Source: Nitrospina sp. (GTDB lineage Bacteria > Nitrospinota > Nitrospinia > Nitrospinales > VA-1). Taken from it: DNA of 64,000 nucleotides. Below, piece after piece: positions 7,597 to 35,922 of the stretch (positions within the stretch are counted from its first letter, which is position 1; the number at the start of each line of letters is the position of its first letter). Position numbers and translations under genes: made by a program. The stretch covers positions 1 through 64,000 of the forward strand of contig JABHTG010000138.1 in NCBI GenBank assembly GCA_018697205.1, given 5' to 3'. The notes beneath the pieces were generated by a model, which was given only the letters and a program-made list of their open reading frames with translations, was not told where the DNA came from and searched no databases.

Positions 7597-8184
7597 TTAT
7601 CTTTGTTTTGTATATAAACTTACATTGTGAAGTGATTGTGTATCTAGTGAGTTGGGTTGGCTAGGTTCTATGTTTGTTGTGTTGGTGTATTTAGTATGAA
7701 AATAACTAAAGATTGCATCCTTTCCTTTTACTGCAATCTCTAACGGTGGCTCAACCAGAGGATTCCCATCTAAAAATAATAGTTTAAGGTGTTTTAGCTG
7801 AATTATTTCTTTGGGTAAGTGCGTTATGCGGTTTCCTCTTAGGTCAAGTCCAGTCAGATTTTTTAAGTCTCCAATTTCCGGTGGTACTTCTGTTATTTTA
7901 TTCCCTCTTAAATATAATTCGCCGAGGTTTTTTAGAGAACAGATTGCGATTGGAAATGAGTTAAGCTTTTGATAATTTAACCCTAGTCGTTTCAGTTTTT
8001 TAAGGTTATTTATTTCAGAGGGAAGCGTTTCAAGTTCATTGCGGCTCATGTCAAGGTCCATTAAGCTTGTAATGTCACCTATCTCAGGAGGTAATTCTTG
8101 AATTTTGTTATCTCCTAGAGCTAATGAGGTACGGCGGTTTATTTTCGCGGCTTGAAAGATTTTTAATAGTTTTTCCTTAGTCAC
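7597..8184 (-). CDS. Leucine-rich repeat protein
   Basis: Repeats such as ITEVPPEIGDLKNLTGLDLRGNRITHLPKEIIQLKHLKLLFLDGNPL. Confidence 0.88.
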   Translation of the reverse strand: MTKEKLLKIFQAAKINRRTSLALGDNKIQELPPEIGDITSLMDLDMSRNELETLPSEINNLKKLKRLGLNYQKLNSFPIAICSLKNLGELYLRGNKITEVPPEIGDLKNLTGLDLRGNRITHLPKEIIQLKHLKLLFLDGNPLVEPPLEIAVKGKDAIFSYFHTKYTNTTNIEPSQPNSLDTQSLHNVSLYTKQR

Positions 8185-8649: not shown

Positions 8650-8922
8650 ATGAACGCTTTTTTAATTACTCTTTTAGTTACTTTTGGCTTTGCCATGTTA
8701 TTAGCAACTACTTATAAACCAGTGTCTAGAAAAGAACTGAAAAAAAATATTTCAGTACAACCAAGACTTAAAAAAGTAGTGATGGGTCCAGAAAACCCAG
8801 CATGGATGCGAATGTATACTGAAGAGATGGCTAAAAGAAAAACAGCAATGACTGCTAAAGTACTTAAAAAGTGGATTGCTGATGATACAAGAATTGAACT
8901 CAGGCCAGACATATCGAGGTGA
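8650..8922 (+). CDS. Hypothetical small membrane-anchored protein
   Basis: 90 aa ORF with N-terminal TM and basic tail. Confidence 0.5.
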   Translation: MNAFLITLLVTFGFAMLLATTYKPVSRKELKKNISVQPRLKKVVMGPENPAWMRMYTEEMAKRKTAMTAKVLKKWIADDTRIELRPDISR

Positions 8923-9015: not shown

Positions 9016-9354
9016 CTACATCTCTGGAGTCGTGTCCATAAGAGGGGCTCCGCCAGAGGCCAAACTCGGTTTTTTCCCTTCATCCTTTCCAAAGTTGTGA
9101 GTCATTTCTAGTCGCCACTTCCACCAGGTTGCTTCTTCTTTAATAGCATCTGAAGCATTTGGTGGTAGTTGAAGGCCAACAGTATTGTTTGAGGTTGTTC
9201 CAACCTTGCAACCTTCAGGAATATTGAGTCCGTTCTCAATCATAATGTTAGCAGGGTCTTTGACGAGCTTTATTTTAAACTCCTCATCACTAAGAGCTTT
9301 TAAAACTATTGCATGCCACTTTTTGTCAAGTGCCTCTTTTTTACTTGGCTCCAT
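9016..9354 (-). CDS. NHLP (nitrile-hydratase-like leader peptide) family protein, putative RiPP precursor
   Basis: 112 aa; KKWHAIVLKALSDEEFKIKLVKDPANIMIENGLNIPEGCKVGTTSNNTVGLQLPP matches the NHLP/nitrile hydratase alpha N-terminal pattern, but no CxxCSC metal site; ends ...LASGGAPLMDTTPEM. Confidence 0.7.
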   Translation of the reverse strand: MEPSKKEALDKKWHAIVLKALSDEEFKIKLVKDPANIMIENGLNIPEGCKVGTTSNNTVGLQLPPNASDAIKEEATWWKWRLEMTHNFGKDEGKKPSLASGGAPLMDTTPEM

Positions 9355-9482
9355 ATTTTTTCACTTTGTTTGTGATCCCCAGAAGGGATAATGTTAATCA
9401 ACCCATCGAATCAAATGGATGGTTTATTTATAAAAAAGTTCTAAGAAATCTATGAAAATATTTTGAGAAATAATTTTACTTG

Positions 9483-12119
9483 TTAACGGTTATGAATTAT
9501 ATCTTTAGCTCTTTCCATGGCATCCCCCAGCTTATCTGTATGAATACCTCCTGCTTGCGCCATGTCGGACCTTCCGCCACCGCTTCCACCAACTATACTA
9601 GAGATTTCTTTTAAAATATTACCAGCATGAAAACTTCCTTCTAGGTCCTTGGTTACACCAGCTGCAAGTAAAACTTTTCCATTTGTATTAGAACCAACTA
9701 CTATAACACCAGATTTAATTTTATTTTTTGCACTATCAATAAAGGACCTCAGTGTTTTAGCGTCCATTTCTTCAAACTGTTTAACCAGTACAGAAGTTTT
9801 GCCAATTTTTTGAATTTCATTTTCCAGATTAGACCCTTTTCCGCTAATAAGCTTTTCTTTTAGATGGCCGATTTCTTTTTCCATAGCTCTTGATTTTTCG
9901 AGTATTTTTTTTACCCTATTTATTTCTTCTTCAGGAGATACTTTTAAGAGGGAGCGTATTGAAATTAGCGTTTTATTTTCTTCCTGCATAGCCGAGTATG
10001 CAGATTTCCCAGCTACGGCTTCAATACGTCTTACTCCAGAAGAAATACCTCCCTCTGAGATTATTTTAAATAAGCCAATATTTCCAGTTGCTGATGTGTG
10101 TGTGCCTCCACAAAGTTCTTTACTAAATTCTCCCATAGACACTACTCTGACATCGTCACCATATTTTTCTCCAAATAGGGCCACAGCTCCTTCTTTAAGA
10201 GCTTTTTCGATAGATAGTTCAGAAGTTGATACATTTAAATTTTCACGTATTTTTTGATTTACACGTTCTTCAATTCTATGTTTTTGCCCTGAAATCAGAG
10301 GCGAAAAGTGAGTGTAGTCAAACCTTAGTCGTGTAGCAGTTACTAACGATCCCGCCTGTTTTACATGGTCGCCTAAAATTTCTTTAAGAGAAGCATGAAG
10401 CAAGTGAGTTGCTGAATGATGTAATGCAGTTTCCGACCTACTTTCCGGATCTACCTTTAAAGTCAAGGTATCTAATTTTTTTATTAGGCCCTGAGTGATT
10501 TTAGCATGATGAACCGTAAGACCTGAAATTGGCTTAGTTGAATTAACTATACTTAGTTGAGCGACTTCATTCCAAGCAACTCCAGAGTCCCCTATTTGCC
10601 CTCCAGATTCTCCGTAAAAAGGTGTTTGATCCATTAATAATTCAACTTCTTCACCTTCGTCAGCAGAGTCAACAGGCTTAGATTTTTTTAAAATCGTTAA
10701 AATCTTTCCTTGTGTTAAGATATTATCGTAACCTAAAAAACAGGTTGGTTTTTCAGTTTTTATAAAATTATTAAAAAATGGAGAGACTGATTTCTCTCCT
10801 GAGCCTTTCCAAGATGCCATTGCTTTTTCTTTTTGTTCCTGCATGGCTTTATTGAAACCATCCATATCAAGTGAGAGACCAATTTCCTTTCCATATTCTT
10901 CCACTAGATCTGCAGGAAAACCGTATGTATCGTAGAGCTTAAAAATTTCATCACCTGGGATATAGTCAAGTTTATGCTTGCGGACTTGGTGGAGAATTTC
11001 TTCCATGCGTTCTATCCCAAAATTTAGAGTATTTGTAAAATTTGATTCTTCGTTTTGCACTACTCGATGGATGAAATTTGCGTTTTGTTTAAAATCAGGA
11101 TAGGCGCCAGAGAAAACCTTGGCTACATAATTTGTGATTTTAAAAAAAAATGGATCATTCTGTTCTAGAAGTTTTCCGTGTCTGAGTGCGCGTCTAATAA
11201 TTCTTCTGACGACATAGCCTCTCCCTTCATTTGAGGGGAGTACTCCATCTCCAATTAGAAAAGCAACTGCTCGAGCGTGGTCTGTTATGACTCGAACCGA
11301 AATATCATGCTCTTTGTTAGAGCCATAAGATGTTCCTGTAACTCGGCAGACTTCTTTTATTATATTCATTAGAAGATCGCAATCGTAGTTTGAGTCTTTT
11401 CCTTGAACTACGGCAGCAAGTCTCTCTAAACCCATGCCCGTATCTATGCATGGATTTGGTAATGGAGTAAGGTTGCCGGACTCATCGCGGTTGTATTGCA
11501 TGAAAACTAGGTTCCATATTTCAAGGTAACGATCACAATCACATCCGACGGCGCATGGTACTTTTCCACATCCAATATTTTCTCCTTGGTCAATATGAAT
11601 TTCTGAGCAGGGTCCACATGGGCCTGTGTTCCCCATAGACCAGAAGTTATCTTTATCTCCCAATCTGATTATGTGAGTGTCAGGAACCCCAATAGCATTA
11701 CACCAAATATCAAATGACTCATCATCGTCCTTGTAAATAGAAATGTATAGCTTGCCTTTAGGTAAACCAATTTCGTTTGTTAGAAAATCCCACCCATACT
11801 TTATTGCATCTTTTTTAAAATAATCTCCGAATGAAAAATTTCCAAGCATTTCAAAAAAAGTATGATGCCTTTTGGTTCTACCAACCATTTCTAAGTCGTT
11901 ATGTTTCCCTCCAGCGCGCACACATTTTTGCACGGACACAGCTCTTTTGCTGGCGCTTACTTCTTCTCCTAGGAAAATATTTTTAAATTGGACCATTCCA
12001 GCATTAGTAAATAAGAGGCTGGGATCATTGTGGGGAACAAGGGAGTAACTTTGCACTTGAGTGTGTTCTTTGTTTATAAAATAATTTAAAAATTTTTTTC
12101 TAAGTTCATTGCCAGTCAT
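9483..12119 (-). CDS. alaS: Alanyl-tRNA synthetase
   Basis: 878 aa; LRKKFLNYFINKEHTQVQSYSLVPHNDPSLLFTNAGMVQFKNIFLG, RTKRHHTFFEMLGNFSFGDYFK, C-terminal GGSGGGRSDMAQAGG. Confidence 0.98.
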   Translation of the reverse strand: MTGNELRKKFLNYFINKEHTQVQSYSLVPHNDPSLLFTNAGMVQFKNIFLGEEVSASKRAVSVQKCVRAGGKHNDLEMVGRTKRHHTFFEMLGNFSFGDYFKKDAIKYGWDFLTNEIGLPKGKLYISIYKDDDESFDIWCNAIGVPDTHIIRLGDKDNFWSMGNTGPCGPCSEIHIDQGENIGCGKVPCAVGCDCDRYLEIWNLVFMQYNRDESGNLTPLPNPCIDTGMGLERLAAVVQGKDSNYDCDLLMNIIKEVCRVTGTSYGSNKEHDISVRVITDHARAVAFLIGDGVLPSNEGRGYVVRRIIRRALRHGKLLEQNDPFFFKITNYVAKVFSGAYPDFKQNANFIHRVVQNEESNFTNTLNFGIERMEEILHQVRKHKLDYIPGDEIFKLYDTYGFPADLVEEYGKEIGLSLDMDGFNKAMQEQKEKAMASWKGSGEKSVSPFFNNFIKTEKPTCFLGYDNILTQGKILTILKKSKPVDSADEGEEVELLMDQTPFYGESGGQIGDSGVAWNEVAQLSIVNSTKPISGLTVHHAKITQGLIKKLDTLTLKVDPESRSETALHHSATHLLHASLKEILGDHVKQAGSLVTATRLRFDYTHFSPLISGQKHRIEERVNQKIRENLNVSTSELSIEKALKEGAVALFGEKYGDDVRVVSMGEFSKELCGGTHTSATGNIGLFKIISEGGISSGVRRIEAVAGKSAYSAMQEENKTLISIRSLLKVSPEEEINRVKKILEKSRAMEKEIGHLKEKLISGKGSNLENEIQKIGKTSVLVKQFEEMDAKTLRSFIDSAKNKIKSGVIVVGSNTNGKVLLAAGVTKDLEGSFHAGNILKEISSIVGGSGGGRSDMAQAGGIHTDKLGDAMERAKDIIHNR

Positions 12120-12208: not shown

Positions 12209-13216
12209 TTAAATGATTCCTGCTTTGAGGAGGTCATGTAGGTGGATAATGCCATCAATTTTTTTTCCGTTTGAACTCACAACCAAAGAAGTAATTGAAT
12301 TTTTTTCCATTAGTTGTACTGCTTCTGTGGCTAAATTTGTCTGTTCTAAGTATTTTGGAAAACTATTAGTCAGGTCTCGTGCACGAACCTTTGATACGTC
12401 TTTTTTATGTTCAATCATCCTCCTAAGATCGCCATCTGTAATAATTCCTTTAAGGTGCTTTTTTTTGTCTACAATTAAAGTAACACCAAGTCGTTTTTGA
12501 GTCATTTCTGAAATGATGGTTGGTAGATCTGAATCCTCGTAAACGACGGGTATCTGCTCTCCTGTGTGCATTAAATCTTCAATAATAGTAAGCATTTTTC
12601 GCCCAATACTCCCACCGGGATGGTTCTGAGCAAAAACCTCATCTTTGAATCCATTTAACTCAAGGTATGATACTACGATGGCATCTCCCATCGCTAACAT
12701 TGCTGTAGTACTTGAGGTGGGAAGAAGTCCATTTCCCCCAGCTTCCTTTTTAACACCAACATCAAGAATGAAATCACTACGTAAGGCTAATGTAGATTTA
12801 ATATTTCCGGTGATTGCTATAAGTTTACAGTTAAGTCGTTTTAAGGCCGGTAGGAGTCTTATGATTTCTTCGGTTTCTCCACTATTTGATAAGGCAATAA
12901 TAATATCATTTTTAGAAATTAGACCTAGGTCCCCATGAATTGCTTCTGCCGCGTGCATATAAATAGCAGTCAAACCAACGCTTGACATTGATGCGGCAAT
13001 TTTTTGGCCAATTAATCCTGATTTTCCCATTCCCGTTACGATCAAACGCTCCTTTCCATCGCGTAATGCGTGGACGATTTTGGGGAAATCTGCTCCAAGC
13101 CGTTTAGATAAGGCCGCCACGGCATCGCTTTCAATTTTTAAGACATGTTTTGCTGTTTTTAAAATTGCGCGATCTTGAATTTTTCTCCTTTTCAATATAC
13201 TCTTATCATTACTCAT
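12209..13216 (-). CDS. kdsD: KpsF/GutQ family arabinose-5-phosphate isomerase (SIS + CBS domains)
   Basis: VTGMGKSGLIGQKIAASMSSVG, HAAEAIHGDLGLI, ALSNSGETEEI, GGSIGRKMLT and two CBS repeats. Confidence 0.93.
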   Translation of the reverse strand: MSNDKSILKRRKIQDRAILKTAKHVLKIESDAVAALSKRLGADFPKIVHALRDGKERLIVTGMGKSGLIGQKIAASMSSVGLTAIYMHAAEAIHGDLGLISKNDIIIALSNSGETEEIIRLLPALKRLNCKLIAITGNIKSTLALRSDFILDVGVKKEAGGNGLLPTSSTTAMLAMGDAIVVSYLELNGFKDEVFAQNHPGGSIGRKMLTIIEDLMHTGEQIPVVYEDSDLPTIISEMTQKRLGVTLIVDKKKHLKGIITDGDLRRMIEHKKDVSKVRARDLTNSFPKYLEQTNLATEAVQLMEKNSITSLVVSSNGKKIDGIIHLHDLLKAGII

Positions 13217-13383
13217 AATGTTCTTTAACTATTTATATTTAAAAGCTCTCGGGGGTTTAACCAAACGATTTTAATACTAGCATAACTCCATTCGCTCAGC
13301 AATCCAAGTTGCTGAATTTATGTGGTTAATTTTATTTTTTGTTAAGTATTTATTGGTTAAAACTTTTGATAAAACTTTACCCT

Positions 13384-16068
13384 ATGTCTAAGCCCAAAAC
13401 ATTTTACTTGATAGATGGTACTTCATATATTTTTCGTGCATTTTTTGGTGTACGACAACAGCTCTCAACATCTAAAGGATTTCCAACAAATGCTTTGTAC
13501 GGATTCATAAATATGTTGCAAAAGGTAATTCGTGACGAAAAACCGGATTACCTTGTCGTTGCGTTTGATAGTCCCGAAAAAACATTTCGTCACAAAATAT
13601 ATTCAGATTACAAGGCTAATCGGGATGCGCCACCAGAAGAACTTTCTAAACAATTCCCTTACTTTGAGCCTCTCGTCGAAGCATATGGCCTATCAAGTAT
13701 ACGCCGCCCTGGGTTTGAAGCTGATGATATTATTGGAACATTAGCTAAAAAGGGAACACAAGAAGGTTTAGATGTAGTTATAGTTAGTGGAGATAAAGAT
13801 ATGATGCAACTTATATCATCTAATGTTCATATGTTTGATACTATGAAAAATAAAAAATTCATGAATAAAGAAGTTTTAGAGAAATTTGGTGTACCTCCAG
13901 AAAAAGTTATAGAAGTAATGGGATTAATGGGGGATTCTAGTGATCATATCCCCGGAGTTACAGGAGTTGGCCCAAAAACAGCAGCTGAATTGATTCAAAA
14001 ATTTGGATCTATAGAATCTCTCTACAACCGGATTGATGAGGTTGAAAAGAATAAAGTTAAGGAGAAGTTAGAGCGTGATAAGAAGAATGCTTTTATGAGT
14101 CGCCAACTTGTTTCTATTGAAACTGAAATGGACTTGGAATTCAATTCGGCTTTAATGAAGCCAGGTAAAATTGATAACGATAAGCTCAAAAAAATGTTTC
14201 AAGAATTTGAGTTTGTGTCTTTCCTTAAAGGGGTGCAGGGTGGAGCGGTTAAATCAATTAAGGTTGATCACTCAGACTATAAAACCATCCTGACCGAAAA
14301 ATCGTTCAACGATCTTTTGAAATTCTTGGCAAAGGAAAAATACTTTGCATTTGATGTTGAAACCACAAGTAAGCGGCCAGTCTGGGCGAGAATGGTTGGT
14401 ATCTCATTTTCTTTTAAGGATGGTAGTGCCTATTATATCCCCTTGGCTCACAGGTATCTTGGGGTCCCCGATCAATTAGAATTTAAAAAGGTGTGTGGAA
14501 AGTTAAAACCGATTTTTGAAGATAAAAGCATTAAAAAATGTGGCCACAATATAAAATATGATCTTATCGTTATGGCTAACGAAGGTATTGCTTTAGCAGG
14601 TGTCGATTTTGATTCGATGATTGCTTCTTATCTTCTTAATCCATCCAGTAGAGGACATGGGTTAGATGCCCTTACCATGGAGTACTTTGGACACCAAAAT
14701 TTAACATATAAAGAGATGGTAGGCATTGGGAATAAGGAAATTGGTTTTGATGAAGTTGAAATTGATCGTGCTACGAAATATGCCGCCGAAGATTCTGATA
14801 TGACTTGGAGGCTTAAGGGTAAACTACAACCCCAGCTTAAGGATAGCACTCTTAAGTTGTATAAGGAGATTGAGCTGCCTTTATTAGAAGTTCTTGCTGA
14901 AATCGAATTAAATGGTATTTACGTTGACCGAAAACATTTGACAGAACTTTCAAGTAAAATAGATAAGGAATTGCTTTGCTTGGAAAAGGATATATATTTA
15001 CTTGCCTCAGAGGATTTTAATATAAATTCTCCAAAGCAACTTGCTGTAATTTTATTTGAAAAACTAAAGCTACCAGTAGTTAAAAAAACGAAGACAGGGT
15101 ACTCCACTGATGTGTCAGTACTTGAATTATTGGCGGTAGAGCACAAACTCCCTAAACAGGTTCTTTCCTTTCGCCAGTTAACTAAATTAAAGACTACGTA
15201 TGTAGATGCTCTTCCTAGAGAGATTTTTATTAATACAGGACGAGTTCATACTTCGTTCAATCAGACCGTTACTGCAACGGGACGTTTGAGTAGCAGTAAT
15301 CCTAACCTTCAAAATATACCCATACGGTCAGATATGGGGAGAGAAATCCGTAAAGCGTTTACAGCGGAGGGCGGTAATATCTTGTTATCCGCTGATTATT
15401 CTCAGATTGAATTACGAATTCTCGCCCATTTGTCACAAGATAAGGCCTTGAAAAATGCTTTCGATAAGGGTGAGGATGTTCATGCACGAACTGCAGCAGA
15501 TATTTTTGGTAGTTCACTGGACCAAGTTGATGAAAACTCACGACGTATAGCTAAAGCAGTGAACTTTGGGATTATTTATGGTCTCAGTGCTTTTGGCCTT
15601 TCACGCCAGCTTAATATTAGCCGAAATGATGCTAAGAATTTTATTGGTCAGTATTTTTCTTTATACAGTAATGTTAAAGAATTTATGAACAATACGGTCG
15701 CTGAGGCTCGTGAGTGCGGGTATACATTAACTATGTTCAACCGTCGTAGATATTTGCCCGATCTTAAAAGTGATAACAGGCAGGTCAGAGAAAGTGCTGA
15801 AAGAATGGCTATTAATTCTCCAATTCAAGGTAGTGCTGCAGACCTTATTAAGGTTGCAATGATTAGACTTTCCAGAAAATTAAAAAAATTAAAATTAAAT
15901 TCAAAAATGATTTTACAAGTACATGATGAGTTAGTTTTTGAATGTCCAGTCTCAGAGAAAAAAGAAATAGAATCTTTGGTACGCAAAGAAATGGAGGGAG
16001 CCTCCACACTTTCTGTTCCTCTTGTTGTTGATATAGGTTGGGGGAAAAACTGGCATGAAGCACATTAG
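13384..16068 (+). CDS. polA: DNA polymerase I
   Basis: ORF starts at 13339 but MSKPKTFYLIDGTSYIFRAFFG (ATG 13384) fits the family start; 5'-3' exo, FDVETTS 3'-5' exo and SADYSQIELRILAHLS polymerase motifs. Confidence 0.97.
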   Translation: MSKPKTFYLIDGTSYIFRAFFGVRQQLSTSKGFPTNALYGFINMLQKVIRDEKPDYLVVAFDSPEKTFRHKIYSDYKANRDAPPEELSKQFPYFEPLVEAYGLSSIRRPGFEADDIIGTLAKKGTQEGLDVVIVSGDKDMMQLISSNVHMFDTMKNKKFMNKEVLEKFGVPPEKVIEVMGLMGDSSDHIPGVTGVGPKTAAELIQKFGSIESLYNRIDEVEKNKVKEKLERDKKNAFMSRQLVSIETEMDLEFNSALMKPGKIDNDKLKKMFQEFEFVSFLKGVQGGAVKSIKVDHSDYKTILTEKSFNDLLKFLAKEKYFAFDVETTSKRPVWARMVGISFSFKDGSAYYIPLAHRYLGVPDQLEFKKVCGKLKPIFEDKSIKKCGHNIKYDLIVMANEGIALAGVDFDSMIASYLLNPSSRGHGLDALTMEYFGHQNLTYKEMVGIGNKEIGFDEVEIDRATKYAAEDSDMTWRLKGKLQPQLKDSTLKLYKEIELPLLEVLAEIELNGIYVDRKHLTELSSKIDKELLCLEKDIYLLASEDFNINSPKQLAVILFEKLKLPVVKKTKTGYSTDVSVLELLAVEHKLPKQVLSFRQLTKLKTTYVDALPREIFINTGRVHTSFNQTVTATGRLSSSNPNLQNIPIRSDMGREIRKAFTAEGGNILLSADYSQIELRILAHLSQDKALKNAFDKGEDVHARTAADIFGSSLDQVDENSRRIAKAVNFGIIYGLSAFGLSRQLNISRNDAKNFIGQYFSLYSNVKEFMNNTVAEARECGYTLTMFNRRRYLPDLKSDNRQVRESAERMAINSPIQGSAADLIKVAMIRLSRKLKKLKLNSKMILQVHDELVFECPVSEKKEIESLVRKEMEGASTLSVPLVVDIGWGKNWHEAH

Positions 16069-34788: not shown

Positions 34789-35922
34789 TTAAGACGTTTT
34801 GTAAAAAAAACCTTTTAAATATTTCCAAATAACTATTGAGCCCACTCTATTTACAAAAGACTTAAATCTAGTGCTGCCACCTAGACATTTTTGACAATAA
34901 GGATGAACAACTTTTAATTTATTAAAACCTTCAACGGCATCAATTACTGGCTTAAAATTCATTATTTCAGTTATAGAATTTTCGAAAACATTTCCAGCTT
35001 TGGTGCTTCCATTATAATCAACACAGCAGTAAGTTAAATCTCCACTACAAAGAATTGCGAAATGATCATTCAGGGCGCTACAATAGCCTGTTTTAGAGGG
35101 GACTACTTTATCATTTTCTGTAAAAGCATTGCCCCATGTATTTAGAATATACGTTTCAAAAGAAATATTTGGTGCGATCTTTACAACATTCCACTTAAAT
35201 GTGGAGAGTTTGTCGATTTTTTTTTCAACGGCAGCTTTATCTTCAAGGCTTAGGGGAGGGCATACCTTGTGGACTTCATTGGCCCAGTAGCGAAAAGTTT
35301 TTCTAAGCTCTTTAGTGTTATTTATTACACTCATCGTTCCGACAGACCAATCTTCACCAGGAACTTCCGCCTTAATTGATGTGTTAAGAAAGTGCACTTT
35401 TATTTTAGGTGGTTTTGTTTGTTTAAGACATGCCCCAATAAACTCTAGAATCCGATTGTGGTATTCCTCAAACTTCATGCGTCTTGCTTTACGAGTTTTG
35501 TAGGATTCTGCGTCAGGAGTTTGTAGGGAAATGTTAATTTGAGAGGCGGTAACTTTTTCTAATTTTATGGCCTGTTCTTCATCTAGATATGTTCCATTTG
35601 TTGTGATACCAGTCTTTACTCCAAGTTGAGCAGCGTAATCGAGAATTTCAAAAAAACGTGGGTGCATGAAAGGCTCACCCATGACATGAAAGGTAATTTT
35701 TTCTGCCATATTGTATTCTGCTATTTCATCAATTATTCCACACACTTTATCAAAATCCATATATTCATAATGCCTTGTCATTTCTTGTTTTGGGCAAAAG
35801 GTACAGTCAAAATTACAAACATTAGTTAGTTCTATGTGAATACGCTGAAGAGGAAAGTTAACTAGTTCTCCAAAGCGTCCAGGGAAAGGTTTTGATCTTG
35901 GAGGATGGACTGTTGTTAGCAT
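34789..35922 (-). CDS. Radical SAM/SPASM domain protein
   Basis: ELTNVCNFDCTFCPKQEM (CxxxCxxC), GEPFMHPRFFEIL, C-terminal Cys cluster CSALNDHF...CSGDLTYCCVDYNG...YCQKCLGG. Confidence 0.92.
   Translation of the reverse strand: MLTTVHPPRSKPFPGRFGELVNFPLQRIHIELTNVCNFDCTFCPKQEMTRHYEYMDFDKVCGIIDEIAEYNMAEKITFHVMGEPFMHPRFFEILDYAAQLGVKTGITTNGTYLDEEQAIKLEKVTASQINISLQTPDAESYKTRKARRMKFEEYHNRILEFIGACLKQTKPPKIKVHFLNTSIKAEVPGEDWSVGTMSVINNTKELRKTFRYWANEVHKVCPPLSLEDKAAVEKKIDKLSTFKWNVVKIAPNISFETYILNTWGNAFTENDKVVPSKTGYCSALNDHFAILCSGDLTYCCVDYNGSTKAGNVFENSITEIMNFKPVIDAVEGFNKLKVVHPYCQKCLGGSTRFKSFVNRVGSIVIWKYLKGFFYKTS

Follow-up and report, generated by a model that had tools for sequence, protein, structure and literature searches.

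The window, a stretch of 64,000 nucleotides of contig JABHTG010000138.1 from Nitrospina sp., belongs to a genome assembly that is 85% complete with 5.8% contamination. It contains an open reading frame (ORF) that had been described, from its letters alone, as an orphan NHLP-type RiPP-precursor-like protein. The ORF itself was confirmed on the minus strand, and its parts and conserved neighbours are listed in Table 1. Two smaller ORFs lie close by: one encodes a 195-aa leucine-rich-repeat protein (LRR_8, LRR_4; window 7597-8184, minus strand), and the other, of 90 aa (8650-8922, plus strand), is convergent with the NHLP-like gene and has no Pfam or NCBIfam match. Homologues of the former occupy the corresponding position in G004 and G007, the two closest relatives, and both of these genomes also contain ORFs related to the latter.

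Table 1. Features of the NHLP-like gene and its surroundings, in window coordinates
Feature	Position	Strand	Evidence and remarks
NHLP-like protein CDS	9016..9354	minus	112 aa, ATG start; 52 orthologues in the order; median dN/dS 0.12
NHLP leader-like domain, residues 15-73	9136..9312	minus	TIGR03793, 34.9 bits; AlphaFold2 helices and beta hairpin; PDB fold matches 8tb1, 9cjx
Family-specific C-terminal helix, residues 69-90, WWxxRLxxIxEFG	9085..9150	minus	Alignment; AlphaFold2 helix 69-90; dN/dS 0.10
Tail, residues 91-112, low confidence, presumably disordered	9019..9084	minus	pLDDT 43-49 from residue 91; dN/dS 0.18
Flagged Gly-Gly, residues 101-102, no conserved cleavage site	9049..9054	minus	Steady only in the window's genus
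alaS/NHLP-like gene intergenic region, 128 bp, probable own promoter region	9355..9482	minus	Gap median 118.5 bp (50 genomes)
alaS, alanyl-tRNA synthetase, conserved upstream neighbour	9483..12119	minus	TIGR00344, 966 bits; 50/50 testable genomes
KpsF/KdsD-type sugar-phosphate isomerase, next conserved neighbour	12209..13216	minus	TIGR00393, over cutoff
polA-like ORF, divergent, often outer neighbour	13339..16068	plus	Cluster c3 of the context table; named from translation alone

The leader-like domain matches the TIGR03793 (leader_NHLP) profile with an E-value of 1e-8, which bears out the earlier description of the N-terminal 75 or so residues as NHLP-like, although the score of 34.9 bits lies below the curated cutoff of 50.9 bits. 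No member of the order reaches that cutoff (best score, 41.9 bits), and all 38 aligned orthologues match the profile below it. The match to the nitrile hydratase (NHase) alpha profile PF02979 is weak (12.6 bits; cutoff, 27.2). A profile of the orthologues retrieved NHase alpha chains from the PDB at E-values of 1e-8 to 1e-9, the top ones split into two pieces, and the nearest solved chain by sequence was 8tb1, an NHLP precursor chimera. Since 38 of 38 orthologues match TIGR03793 and the best PDB matches are NHase alpha, 8tb1, and 9cjx, the similarity to NHLPs exceeds chance.

The TIGR03793 match forms a single contiguous stretch, whereas the alignment with NHase alpha falls into two pieces flanking the deleted metal site; the relation between NHLPs and NHase has been described in the same terms (Haft et al. 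2010, PMC2887384). The metal motif C-x2-C-x-C, corresponding to the CxxCSC site of NHase, occurs in none of the 52 orthologues, and the catalytic site is thus absent, as had been claimed. The contiguous TIGR03793 match suggests that the family descends from the NHLP branch. An AlphaFold2 model (built from two sequences; pLDDT 74) predicts three helices and a beta hairpin; a long final helix (residues 69-90) leads into a low-confidence tail. Two NHLP precursors, 8tb1 (E = 0.11) and 9cjx (E = 0.26), headed a fold search of 350,542 PDB chains; because these are the best E-values, the model is consistent with the NHLP fold and falls short of proof.

With the NHLP/proteusin precursors (TIGR03793; Haft et al. 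2010; 8tb1, 9cjx), the window family shares the predicted leader fold of three helices and a beta hairpin, the missing metal site, and the contiguous profile match. It differs from them in scoring below cutoff, in having no L(x)4L motif, no Gly-Gly at the leader end, and no hypervariable core, in the absence of maturation and export genes, and in being a single copy fixed beside alaS. Homologous segments on each side of the metal site are shared with NHase alpha (TIGR01323/PF02979) and thiocyanate hydrolase gamma; unlike NHase alpha, the window protein has the CxxCSC region deleted, is half as long, carries a WW helix of its own, and is not expected to be catalytic. Its first helices also give weak matches to Os1348-family NHLP clan proteins (NF038399) and to Frankia_peptide (PF14407), but it scores far under both cutoffs and its C-terminal half differs.

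NHLPs from outside the order, used as controls, behave as expected. A genuine one in G068, a genome of the same class (L169:5130-5432, plus strand), shares the leader domain and scores 61.3 bits, above cutoff; unlike the window protein, it has a Cys-rich core ending in GCGPTNNCC and is not located beside alaS. The start of a second NHLP copy is visible in G068 at the end of the contig (L169, 5687 onward). Another control NHLP, in G315, is situated between radical-SAM-like and protease-like ORFs, both named from their translations alone. NHLP precursors of other phyla (L173:3226-3474, L172:3017-3361, and L174:329-577) have nearly identical leaders, and their core is conserved, since all three end in AGLCCCW.

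Gly-Gly marks the leader end in true NHLPs; conservation goes no further, and the core beyond it is hypervariable (Haft et al. 2010, PMC2887384). At the corresponding position the window family has, in place of Gly-Gly, the conserved helix WWxxRLxxIxEFG; residues W13, L30, W77, and R81 are invariant in the 38 aligned members. The tail SLASGG/APLMDTTPEM is present, and its Gly-Gly, which had been put forward as a possible leader-cleavage site, is separated from the end of the leader match by about 28 residues. Gly-Gly at this position is consistent solely in the window's genus (5/5); anywhere in the protein, it occurs in 16 of the 52 members, at scattered positions. A division into leader and core at a Gly-Gly that is misplaced and genus-specific, in a protein conserved over its full length across the order, is not supported.

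The L(x)4L motif, required by NHLP-modifying enzymes in MprE7 and SrpE (PMC12455567), was found in none of the 52 orthologues. Median dN/dS values of 0.12 for the whole protein, 0.10 for helix 69-90, and 0.18 for the tail show that the entire protein is under purifying selection. The helix is its most conserved region and the tail the part with the lowest identity conservation, yet the tail too is constrained, as its dN/dS indicates. It is mostly acidic and low in Cys, Ser, and Thr, and no hypervariable core rich in these residues was found. Comparison across orthologues, which the sequence-only reading had proposed, therefore reveals constraint along the whole length rather than a conserved leader with a variable core, and the principal claim of that reading, an orphan RiPP precursor, is not supported, given the missing L(x)4L motif, the misplaced Gly-Gly, and the lack of such a core.

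Nor is the gene an orphan: orthologues are present in 52 of the 64 genomes of the window's order. (A contig search with the single sequence yielded one near relative, 79% identical and labelled Nitrospina sp.) The gene is single-copy in its carriers save for G041 and G027, where one of the second copies is a fragment at a contig end and the other adjoins a run of N, so that both are probably assembly artefacts. The 12 genomes of the order without the gene are those in which alaS ends at the contig end (7) or is absent from the assembly (5); because they lack the 3' end of alaS or all of it, no true absence was found within the order. In same-class genomes outside the order, alaS is intact and the NHLP-like gene is not there. 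The survey beyond the phylum took in about 310 genomes, and many of the surveyed genomes are incomplete. A search of the available literature found no link between Nitrospina and nitrile hydratase or its leader.

Directly upstream and on the same strand, alaS is found in all 50 genomes in which that side is assembled, at a median distance of 118.5 bp (2.9 kb in G063). The sugar isomerase comes second upstream in 28 of the 36 genomes that have any gene there, often with the polA-like gene beyond it, and the downstream neighbour varies between most genera. A promoter-like site whose -10 element ends 51-56 bp before the start codon occurs in genera g6 and g8 (19 of 20 genomes); such sites are singly not significant, and none is clearly visible in the window itself. 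The gap of about 120 bp, together with the promoter-like site in several genera, suggests that the gene is transcribed separately from alaS.

The earlier observation that no cyclodehydratase, LanM, or C39 peptidase is encoded nearby extends genome-wide, the window's own genome (85% complete) having no YcaO, LanC-like, or C39 match. Among 77 genomes of the phylum, a C39 peptidase is found in 12 and YcaO in 13, and the single-contig carriers G008 and G009 have neither. Conservation of the full length and an absence of maturation or export enzymes, which the sequence-only reading had named as findings that would speak against it, are thus largely what the order displays, most carriers being without C39 and YcaO.

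The gene, then, encodes a real, order-wide NHLP-type protein that does not qualify as a RiPP precursor. We consider it probable that the protein is a domesticated, uncleaved, non-RiPP member of the NHLP type, specific to the order. The fold similarity, the single copy throughout the order, the adjacency to alaS, the purifying selection on the full length, the loss of RiPP motifs, and the absence of consistent machinery lead to this reading, and the evidence likewise favours the second option that had been offered, an NHLP-fold protein with another role. On the domestication reading, an NHLP fold, derived from NHase alpha by deletion of the metal site, would have become fixed behind alaS in the ancestor of the order and would now be inherited vertically as an uncleaved, probably cytoplasmic, single-copy protein. 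From conservation and fold we infer that it may act by protein-protein contact, with a docking surface made up of the helical core and the WWxxRLxxIxEFG helix, and with the acidic tail serving as a short linear motif in contact with the partner; this partner-binding step is put forward tentatively, with somewhat under an even chance of being correct.

Gene position alone makes alanyl-tRNA synthetase (AlaRS) the obvious first candidate partner. As a special case of domestication, the protein could be a dedicated partner or regulator of AlaRS, acting on stability, aggregation, or regulation, and its same-strand position behind alaS in 50 of 50 genomes, despite a downstream side that is reshuffled in most genera, is in keeping with such a role. 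We nonetheless think this unlikely: the gap and the promoter-like site suggest separate transcription, and the adjacency may be regional, given that the sugar isomerase and the polA-like gene also show partial conservation as neighbours.

Somewhat less likely again is trans modification of a RiPP precursor, in which an unlinked enzyme would act on the acidic tail, which would then be cut off and exported. The NHLP fold and the predicted flexible tail would suit such a precursor, a trans-acting enzyme might belong to a family outside those searched, and SPASM matches are numerous, with 17 in the window's own genome and between 1 and 11 in each of nine other carriers. The radical SAM/SPASM ORF at 34789-35922 (minus strand), which had been noted as lying 25 kb away, is real and turns out to be one of those 17. 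The one SPASM protein that could be traced across the order, a radical SAM/SPASM protein of about 446 aa with a C-terminal PCP_red domain (contig C34 of the window's genome, L179:1732-3069, minus strand), shares 82-95% identity among six carriers. Its closest models are NirJ2 and AhbD, with scores below their cutoffs, and it has homologues of 48-52% identity in several gene-less outgroups; it looks like a heme-pathway enzyme and was rejected as the trans-acting maturase. Modification in trans is further opposed by the lack of C39 and YcaO in most carriers, single-contig ones included, by the loss from all 52 orthologues of the L(x)4L motif needed in MprE7 and SrpE, and by a tail that is under purifying selection and poor in Cys, Ser, and Thr.

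A connection with nitrite oxidation, such as a chaperone function in the maturation of nitrite oxidoreductase (NXR), is more doubtful still. The gene is confined to the order that contains nitrite oxidizers, many of its carriers have a roughly 430-aa beta subunit resembling NxrB, as detected with a model of DMSO reductase type II beta subunits that is not NXR-specific, and this subunit does not occur in that form in the outgroups. However, several near-complete or single-contig carriers (G047, G019, and G008) have no strong match of that type, the genes are unlinked, and shared ancestry by itself accounts for the overlap; without a tight correlation with gene presence, the link was discarded. 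That the gene is the functionless remnant of what was once an NHLP precursor, as the loss of RiPP-specific motifs might imply, is scarcely credible in view of dN/dS values well under 1 and retention across the order.

The probable domestication of an NHLP-type protein bears on how the NHLP models are used. They serve to call RiPP precursors, and a match below their threshold can come from a protein that is inherited vertically throughout an order and is apparently not a RiPP. If confirmed, the domestication reading would mean that a leader fold was recruited into cell physiology, the opposite direction to the accepted account, in which NHase was recruited as a peptide leader, and that marine nitrite oxidizers have an unstudied protein of their own. 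Were the AlaRS reading true, a RiPP leader fold would have become part of the core equipment that serves translation in this order.

A 5' UTR hairpin before the ribosome-binding site was also considered; it is frequent but, judged by energy, does not fold consistently better than mononucleotide shuffles. In two genomes, G050 and G052 (L096 and L077), the gap between alaS and the NHLP-like gene contains, just 5' of the start codon, a GC hairpin with a T run after it (GGAGC..GCTCCTTTTT), which resembles a terminator or attenuator and has a minimum free energy of about -11, compared with a mean near -4 for shuffles.
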